Origin: Muribaculaceae bacterium
Lineage (GTDB): Bacteria > Bacteroidota > Bacteroidia > Bacteroidales > Muribaculaceae
Assembly (NCBI GenBank): GCA_022509065.1
Contig: JAFLTY010000008.1
Span: 1-64,000, forward strand
Direction of reading: 5' to 3'
Length of the DNA stretch: 64,000 nt
Shown one piece after another: positions 18,006 through 20,804 of this stretch. Each line of letters starts with the position of its first letter. The stretch's first letter is position 1. The position numbers and the translations under genes are program-made. A model generated the notes under the pieces. The model did no database searches. It was given only the letters and a program-made list of their open reading frames with translations, and had not been told where the DNA came from.

Positions 18006-18398
18006 TCAGAAAGGTAAATCGTCCGTAGGTTCGGAAGGAGCAAGCTCTACGGGAGGTATAGTAGGCGCATTGTAGGGATTCGACGAAGCCGGGTAGGGCT
18101 GTTCCGTCGGTTGTTGAGGAACAGTCTGCGGATCGACTTGTTCTGCGCGCCACGCGCTTATGCTGGTGAACCAACGGCCGTTATATTCGCGGCTACTGAT
18201 ATCGAAGCTGAGTCGTACTGTCTGACCGACTTCCAAAGGGAATTGGTCGGCCTTATCTCCAAAGAAATCAAAGAAGATTTTTTGAGGGTAAGATTCTTGT
18301 GTTTCAAGCACATATTCGCGTTTACGCCAGTTTTTGCCGGCCTTGGACACGCCACTTACTTCTGGAAAAGCATGTGTGATTTTTCCGATTATTTCCAT
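18006..18398 (-). CDS. DUF3127 family protein
   Basis: 130 residues from ATG 18398. It begins MEIIGKITHAFPEVSGVSKAG and continues KREYVLETQE, characteristic of DUF3127, a Bacteroidota family with predicted OB-fold-like, nucleic-acid-binding character. The C-terminal 45 residues are Pro/Gln-rich and end in acidic DDLPF, resembling the acidic tips of single-stranded DNA-binding proteins. The longer upstream frame overlaps a structured RNA region and is rejected. The leader of this gene carries that RNA element, so it may be controlled at the RNA level. Confidence 0.85.
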   Translation of the reverse strand: MEIIGKITHAFPEVSGVSKAGKNWRKREYVLETQESYPQKIFFDFFGDKADQFPLEVGQTVRLSFDISSREYNGRWFTSISAWRAEQVDPQTVPQQPTEQPYPASSNPYNAPTIPPVELAPSEPTDDLPF

Positions 18399-18441
18399 TA
18401 CTGAATTATAATTGATGGTTAATTGTACGATATTAATAAAA

Positions 18442-18615
18442 CCACGCCGGAGGATGCGATGAAACTCCGAAAAGACAGGATTTGAGTGTTCGTCAGCCTT
18501 TGTAATCCTCCGGCCCGAGTGGACTTGCCTAAGCAATGAGGCCCGCCATTGGCTAACTAAACTTGCTCGGACTTTCAATATGATTTGAAGAGTTTCCCAA
18601 TCAACTCCGGCGTGG
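18442..18615 (-). ncRNA. Structured RNA element or leader upstream of DUF3127
   Basis: On the minus strand an outer helix CCACGCCGGAG (18615-18605) with CTCCGGCGTGG (18452-18442) encloses GAAACTC/GAGTTTC (18596-18590 with 18467-18461) and two inner hairpins, CCGAG/CTCGG (18570-18566 with 18519-18515) and AGGATT/AATCCT (18509-18504 with 18482-18477). A mutually exclusive 10-bp helix pairs GCCGGAGGAT (18514-18505) with ATCCTCCGGC (18456-18447), just before a GTGGTTTTATT tail. A canonical promoter lies about 60 nt upstream. It may be a free small RNA (6S-like size) or an attenuator/riboswitch. I recognise no known family. Confidence 0.5.
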
Positions 18616-18676
18616 CTGGTATCAAAGTCAAAAAACTAATAGAGGTCTAAGTTTTCAACCGTTTATTTTTATAACG

Positions 18677-18708
18677 CAAAGATAAGGATTTTTGTTTGAA
18701 ATCCCAAA
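18677..18708 (-). promoter_or_regulatory. Promoter of structured RNA / DUF3127 transcript
   Basis: Minus strand TTTG (18708-18705), 20-nt spacer and TATCTTTG (18684-18677). The predicted start is near 18670, ahead of the folded region 18442-18615. Confidence 0.65.
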
Positions 18709-19199: not shown

Positions 19200-20804
19200 T
19201 TATTGCATCAGATCGTTGTATTCCTGGAGTTTCGCTTTGGCGGCAGCGCCTGCCTCTTCATTGCCTGTACGGTCATAGTAGCTGACAAGCTGATTGTAAA
19301 GTATGCGATATACATTTAAGGAATTAGATGGATTCTGAGGATTGGCGTTTTCGGGGTTTGCATCCAGCACTTCCATAAGTTTCAATATAGCAGCTTCTGA
19401 ATCTTCATCGACAACCCCGTTGTTACGGTTCAGAAGAATTTGCACCTTGCGAAGCAAAAGATTGGCGTTTGGCGCGTTAGGATCAAGGATTTTATCAACA
19501 TATTCCAGTCCTATAGCTGCGTATTTGTTACGCAGTGCCTCGTCTTCCTTGGCTTCTACGATAGCTGACAGAGCGAGTCCTGATCCGGTGTTAAAATCTT
19601 GATCGGCAGGATTTTCTAACATGCCCATATATTGAAGATACGACTCAAACGCATCGATATTTCTATTTGCTTTGCTCTGAATATTAACGAGTTGCTGTAG
19701 AATCGATGTTTCTGTGGGGAGATTTGCCCTACCCTGGTTGAGAATTTCTAAGGCTTTTTCGAACTGATCGGCCTTAGCGAGCATCTGGGAGTATGCCACA
19801 TAGTCACCGGCGTTATAACGACCGGCATATTCCTTGTTGGTGAAAAATTTTTCGGCAGTGGCGAGTGCCTCTTCGTCACGACCCAATTCGTTAAGCGAGC
19901 GGTATATGATACGGTCAAGCGTAAGATCGTTTGGCGATTCATTCAATACTTCGTTGGCGGTTTTAATAGCATCGTCATACTGTTTGTTAGCAAAAAGAAG
20001 GACGACATAACGCGCTTTGTCCTCAGGGAAATGGTTTGGATTGGACATGTATTTGCCATACTGACTTGTAGCACGGCCTATCTTACCGTTATCAAAATAT
20101 TTTTCAGCGAGTTCGCGTTGTGCAAGTGCCGAGTTGGGTTGTTTCTGAAGGAGTTCTTCGAGGCGTTGAATAGCGTATTCTGGAACTACATAAAAATAAG
20201 TATTGGCATACTTGACATATGCTGCCGGATTATCGCTGTCGAAGTTGATAGCCTGTTCATATTGAGCAGCCGCATCATTATAGTTGCGGTTCTTGTATAG
20301 GCGGTCTCCTTCAAAGATGTAAATCTCAGGTTCGTGATTTTTGGAGTCTTTACGAGCTTTGGCGATATATTTGTCTATCTCTTTTTCATAACCTGTGGGA
20401 TCGGCGTTATAATATGCCCTTGCTATGTCAACGGTTATCTCACTGTTCTTTTTAGCGAGGTTTTGAGCTTTTTTGAAGTTTTCTTCTGCGGCATTCTTGT
20501 TTTTGTTGAGCAAATCAAGCGCACCCAGGCCTACATAATTGTACCCGCAGTTAGCATCGGCGGCGATACCCGCATTGAAATATTCTTTTGCTTTTGCTTT
20601 GTCACCTTTGTTAAGATATGCCTGACCGAGATAATAATTTGCCAATGCTTTGTCTGTCCCGGCGGCATTCATGTTTTTGTTCAAAACGGTAATAGCATTG
20701 TCATACTGACCTGCCTTGTAATACTCGATACCGTCGGTGTAACCTTCCGCCATAGCTGTCAGTGAGGCTCCCAACATAAGGGCAACTAAATAATGAAATT
20801 TCAT
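19200..20804 (-). CDS. Exported tetratricopeptide-repeat protein
   Basis: 534 residues with a signal peptide (MKFHYLVALMLGASLTAMAEG). At least ten TPR-like units follow, for example EYYKAGQYDNAITVLNKNM and YLNKGDKAKAKEYFNAGI near the N-terminus, covering most of the protein. It is therefore a periplasmic helical scaffold. In many Bacteroidetes a similar gene follows the ExbB/ExbD/TonB and PstS-like genes; here it lies behind the PstS-like lipoprotein but is separated by a strong terminator, so it probably has its own promoter. The exact role is unknown. Confidence 0.82.
   Translation of the reverse strand: MKFHYLVALMLGASLTAMAEGYTDGIEYYKAGQYDNAITVLNKNMNAAGTDKALANYYLGQAYLNKGDKAKAKEYFNAGIAADANCGYNYVGLGALDLLNKNKNAAEENFKKAQNLAKKNSEITVDIARAYYNADPTGYEKEIDKYIAKARKDSKNHEPEIYIFEGDRLYKNRNYNDAAAQYEQAINFDSDNPAAYVKYANTYFYVVPEYAIQRLEELLQKQPNSALAQRELAEKYFDNGKIGRATSQYGKYMSNPNHFPEDKARYVVLLFANKQYDDAIKTANEVLNESPNDLTLDRIIYRSLNELGRDEEALATAEKFFTNKEYAGRYNAGDYVAYSQMLAKADQFEKALEILNQGRANLPTETSILQQLVNIQSKANRNIDAFESYLQYMGMLENPADQDFNTGSGLALSAIVEAKEDEALRNKYAAIGLEYVDKILDPNAPNANLLLRKVQILLNRNNGVVDEDSEAAILKLMEVLDANPENANPQNPSNSLNVYRILYNQLVSYYDRTGNEEAGAAAKAKLQEYNDLMQ

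Follow-up and report, generated by a model that had tools for sequence, protein, structure and literature searches.

The structured RNA on the minus strand of the window, between positions 18617 and 18434, is almost certainly a Bacteroidales 6S RNA and so one of a widespread class of housekeeping RNAs; the window is the whole stretch of 64,000 nucleotides that was analysed. Comparison with the Rfam covariance models showed a match to RF01693 (Bacteroidales-1) with a score of 127.7 bits, an E value of 6.5e-21 and coverage of model positions 1-179 of 179, that is, over the full length of the model. The gathering scores applied were 60 bits for RF01693 and 85 bits for RF01685 (6S-Flavo). The RNA gene is located as follows:

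18434..18617, minus strand: 6S RNA gene, RF01693 model positions 1-179 of 179, 127.7 bits, sole match in the genome.

The assignment of Bacteroidales-1 to 6S RNA comes from the Rfam description of the family, which reads "6S-Bacteroidales RNA suggested". Bacteroidales-1 was first published as a candidate RNA motif, and the passages of the 2010 description that deal with it give a question mark for both cis-regulation and switch (PMC2864571). The RNA of the window agrees with RF01693 in its full-length match above the cut-off, in the same conserved blocks and in the same apical structure; it is therefore of a kind already known, an ordinary Bacteroidales 6S RNA. Membership of 6S-Flavo was ruled out: the RNA can be aligned end to end with RF01685 and both contain the ACUC and GGAGUUU blocks, but its score against that model is 24.3 bits, under the cut-off of 85, with an E value of 0.37. 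The initial annotation had described a structured small RNA that fits no known family and had proposed the Rfam comparison, naming 6S RNA as a match that would refute a regulatory switch while keeping the RNA. Exactly such a housekeeping-type match was obtained: the RNA of approximately 170-184 nt, with a promoter upstream and lying 5' of a DUF3127 gene, stands, and its supposed lack of a family does not.

The covariance-model search of its own genome found RF01693 once, as a single-copy gene. In the family sample, 138 of 149 genomes contain RF01693 with one match each, and 109 of the 110 high-quality family genomes have it, as expected for a near-universal gene of the lineage. Matches were also found in 42 of the 49 genomes of the genus sample and in the control genome of Bacteroides ihuae. 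The order sample showed 64 of 247 genomes with a match at E <= 0.001, 46 of them above the cut-off; RF01693 was not found at that E value in the other 183, for which the sensitivity of the model and the strict filters may be the reason. Comparative tests used 94 of the 138 family matches, with higher scores favoured, 32 of the 42 genus matches, and 43 of 45 order loci drawn from 60 non-family order matches. The two order loci left out were one without the anchor motifs (L131) and one that stops at the contig end (L128), while L133-L135 were kept although they are under the Rfam cut-off.

The ends of the RNA are joined by a closing stem, in which 18615-18605 (CCACGCCGGAG) and 18452-18442 (CTCCGGCGTGG) form a perfect match of 11 bp, and the strand following its 5' arm contains a conserved block:

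18605..18615, minus strand: closing stem, 5' arm CCACGCCGGAG, pair probability 0.98-1.0, covaries in relatives.

18442..18452, minus strand: closing stem, 3' arm CTCCGGCGTGG, pair probability 0.98-1.0, covaries in relatives.

18590..18602, minus strand: conserved 5'-strand block GATTGGGAAACTC, identity of 95% or more in 12 of its 13 family-consensus columns.

Fold prediction for this RNA gave the closing stem a pair probability of 0.98-1.0, and the 11-bp helix proposed in the initial annotation was recovered at the same positions. Over the 93 distinct rows of the family, the stem is paired in 989 of 1023 cells, and none of 2000 whole-arm shuffles was as good; the cell count is lowered by four rows with only four closing pairs, which look misaligned at the 5' arm. 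The mean helix score was 27.1 in the family, against 25.2 with swapped partners (0 of 200 swaps), and 27.5 in the 43 order loci, against 17.1 (0 of 200 swaps), these and the other shuffle and partner-swap statistics for helices being calculated without regard to relatedness among loci. Both ends are unpaired in the Rfam consensus of RF01693, whereas in this RNA they make a covarying closing stem, which is a comparative point added to the family. The commonest closing arms in the genus are CCACATCAAAG with CTTTGATGTGG; in relation to them, the 5' arm of this species is altered at four positions and its 3' arm carries four changes that match, so that the stem departs from the prevailing genus form in a compensated way.

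The apical helix also scored better than its partner swaps, both in the family (n = 94, 0 of 200 swaps) and in the order (n = 41 of the 43 order loci, 0 of 200). The complementary segments GAAACTC and GAGTTTC, which lie on the two sides of the central region, are paired in 646 of 651 cells; they are nearly invariant, and this near-invariance says little about pairing. The minimum fold energy was -63.1 to -64.2 kcal/mol, with a small difference between tools, and it was better than that of 200 of 200 dinucleotide shuffles (z = -3.76). Taken over its length, the RNA shows a closed rod with a closing stem and an apical stem that both covary and a putatively open central region. RNAalifold consensus structures from the MAFFT alignments were poor and were left out of the results.

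A second pairing is possible for the 3' strand of the closing stem, between 18514-18505 (GCCGGAGGAT) and 18455-18446 (ATCCTCCGGC), with a perfect match of 10 bp:

18505..18514, minus strand: rival hairpin, 5' arm GCCGGAGGAT, within the apical domain, perfect complement of 18455-18446, pairing not conserved.

18446..18455, minus strand: rival hairpin, 3' arm ATCCTCCGGC, overlaps the closing stem, perfect complement of 18514-18505.

This 10-bp helix had been described before with its 3' arm at 18456-18447; the perfect match exists, and the position of that arm is corrected here by one nucleotide. Since the 3' arms of both helices overlap, the two pairings exclude each other, as had been claimed. 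They are both possible, and not independent of each other, because the heptamer GCCGGAG is present twice, at 18611-18605 in the 5' arm of the closing stem and at 18514-18508 in the apical domain, and the same 3' strand can therefore pair with either copy. When the 184-nt RNA was dinucleotide-shuffled 2000 times, 26 of the shuffles contained a perfect inverted repeat of at least 10 bp and nine contained one of at least 11 bp. Forcing the rival helix gave a fold energy of -54.6 kcal/mol against -63.1, which is 8.5 kcal/mol worse, and the free RNA of this species is predicted to form it with pair probabilities of approximately 1e-4 or below.

Across relatives the rival helix showed no covariation. 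Family rows have 665 of 930 cells paired, and 808 of 2000 shuffles were as good; nor was the helix better than swapped partners, since 200 of 200 swaps reached its score in the family and 194 of 200 in the order. With dinucleotide-shuffled 3' arms, the family score was 13.13 against 12.93 (sd 0.26) and seven of 50 shuffles reached it, and the order score was under the shuffled mean, with 40 of 50 reaching it. The rival helix is weak or absent in most of the sampled relatives. We take it to be a by-product of how the closing stem has changed, and see a small chance that it is a lineage-specific release hairpin.

The position of the RNA beside a DUF3127 gene had suggested an attenuator or riboswitch, in which a cis-acting toggle that exchanges the closing stem for the 3' hairpin would control the downstream gene:

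18006..18398, minus strand: DUF3127 gene (PF11325, Pfam E value 2.3e-32), neighbour outside the RNA, adjacency not conserved.

In the window the RNA is upstream of this gene on the same strand, with 43 nt from the closing stem to the DUF3127 ATG. This gap contains no TAnnTTTG box, so that read-through from the promoter of the RNA is possible, and the closing and rival helices are mutually exclusive. Against this stands that the RNA belongs to a known housekeeping-type family (RF01693) and that the neighbourhood is not kept. DUF3127 was found near the RNA in one of 94 family loci, the window's own, where seven of the family loci without a DUF3127 match had less than 700 nt of downstream sequence, in none of 43 order loci, and in two of 32 genus loci, with downstream flanks of 96 to 1541 nt. 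Eleven genus genomes match both the RNA and DUF3127: two have them adjacent and nine on different contigs. Among these nine, the RNA of G392 is at the contig end, and the downstream sequence was read in five (G393, G395, G396, G398 and G399), which showed no DUF3127 match through 1541 nt past the anchor, and not in G397, G401 and G403. In the other adjacent locus of the genus, L165, the RNA and the gene are separated by a terminator-like hairpin that runs into a stretch of T and by a further TATCTTTG box, whereas the 43-nt gap of the window contains no such box. Because adjacency is limited to one of 94 family and two of 32 genus loci, a DUF3127 riboswitch is unlikely, and the energy cost of the rival helix and its lack of covariation (808 of 2000 shuffles, against none for the closing stem) also speak against it. 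By synteny and covariation together this reading was rejected, and we give it hardly any credence: the position 5' of DUF3127 is not conserved, and of the two alternative helices only the closing one covaries. A false riboswitch candidate is thereby removed and the RNA is placed in a known family.

Upstream of the gene, the DUF3127 reading frame continues without a stop across a large part of the 6S RNA gene, as a 190-aa ORF from a TTG at 18578 (18006-18578, minus strand), while the protein from the ATG at 18398 has 130 aa. The open frame across the 6S RNA gene is probably due to chance.

Upstream of the 6S RNA gene, a promoter of the Bacteroidetes type was read in the sequence:

18677..18708, minus strand: Bacteroidetes-type promoter TTTG-N20-TATCTTTG, with TTTG at 18708-18705 and TATCTTTG at 18684-18677.

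The 110 nt upstream of the RNA contain a TAnnTTTG box in 92 of 94 family loci (mononucleotide-shuffle mean 5.8) and in 39 of 43 order loci (mononucleotide-shuffle mean 3.4). The canonical promoter of the initial annotation holds as far as the Bacteroidetes consensus is concerned, which is given in the part of PMC7366714 that treats promoters; an E. coli-type promoter scan, with five sites found against a shuffle mean of 4.6 and thus no excess, placed none there. From the end of the TATCTTTG box to the closing stem there are 61 nt (18676-18616, minus strand), a distance that allows either a longer processed leader or a start nearer the stem. In relatives, the last box is 12 to 101 nt from the closing stem among family loci and 5 to 73 nt among order loci, so this 6S RNA seems to have a leader of variable length. 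Downstream, the U-rich tail reported earlier is present as GGTTTTATTA, 3' of the closing stem, but a simple terminator scan gave no hit where the RNA ends, and read-through into DUF3127 is therefore possible in this species. As regards a transcription unit of its own, the RNA thus combines a box of its own in nearly all family loci and a DUF3127 neighbour in a single one with an empty terminator scan at its 3' end. A hairpin of 15 pairs with a T-rich tail is located at 19176-19140 on the minus strand, just after a TPR-protein gene (19200-20804), and is likely a terminator.

The mechanism of this 6S RNA is proposed by analogy with established 6S biology. Bacteroides thetaiotaomicron belongs to the same order as the organism of the window. 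For that species, dRNA-seq detected the 6S RNA together with product RNAs of two classes, according to the sections of PMC7366714 on this RNA. Promoter mimicry, polymerase sequestration and release by product RNA are reviewed for 6S RNAs in the relevant portions of PMC8876501. By analogy with this known biology, the closed rod with its putatively open central region would mimic an open promoter, and the 6S RNA would hold the holoenzyme of the housekeeping RNA polymerase. This enzyme would then copy the 5' strand into a short product RNA, and this synthesis would open the closing stem and release the polymerase. From the arrangement in other 6S RNAs, we infer that the template of the product RNA may lie on the strand of the conserved block GATTGGGAAACTC. 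The rival helix would form at most after synthesis of the product RNA has opened the closing stem.

Such a late role is the basis of another reading of the 3' hairpin, in which the RNA is a 6S RNA and the pairing 18514-18505 with 18455-18446 is a release hairpin triggered by the product RNA. In E. coli, 6S RNA has a 9-bp release hairpin in the 3' part of the central bubble, as described in the corresponding part of PMC8876501, and the logic of a hairpin that forms when the 5' strand is blocked agrees with it, as opening of the closing stem is predicted to let a 3' hairpin form here too. Barring the first 12 to 45 nt from pairing gave the hairpin a predicted mean probability of 0.991, against approximately 1e-4 or below in the free RNA. 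Furthermore, the 3' arm CTCCGGC is present in four loci of the family set, from two genera, and all of them have CCGGAGGAT in the apical domain. Unlike the E. coli hairpin, this one is predicted in few relatives and without covariation in either family or order: with the 5' strand blocked, at least four expected inter-region pairs were found in six of 94 family, three of 43 order and five of 32 genus loci, this species being included among the six family and the five genus loci. In the genus mate L152, the closing stem is altered with compensation and the rival helix has gained a mismatch, and its expected rival pairs are 0.0. A release hairpin at this place in the 6S RNA is improbable.

With the 5' strand blocked, the search of the family, order and genus loci found no partner in common with which the 3' arm would refold. 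Most often the 3' region paired with itself (in 72 of 94 family, 22 of 43 order and 20 of 32 genus loci), a count inflated because pairs within the region were summed twice and flanking sequence was included. The next commonest was UUACAAAGG, in nine of 94 family and seven of 32 genus loci. A narrower version would confine the event to this species and the few CTCCGGC relatives: the closing stem may have drifted so that the freed 3' strand would snap into the apical-domain hairpin once the product RNA opens the stem, an E. coli-like release hairpin that evolved anew in one lineage. We consider this more specific scenario slightly less probable still. If the release-hairpin reading were true, the Bacteroidales 6S RNAs would offer a natural series of release hairpins, weak and strong, for testing RNA polymerase release driven by refolding.

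The CAUC of the 3' arm is common, each of its columns in the family consensus standing at 60-95%, and it is retained in this species though the arm reads GGCG; for these reasons a local hairpin of CAUC, loop and GRUG was not counted as a switch. The 3' arm could form this hairpin in 74 of 94 loci of the family, 16 of 43 of the order and 31 of 32 of the genus, and in the relatives (region 18455-18442, minus strand, in the window) it would compete with the closing stem.
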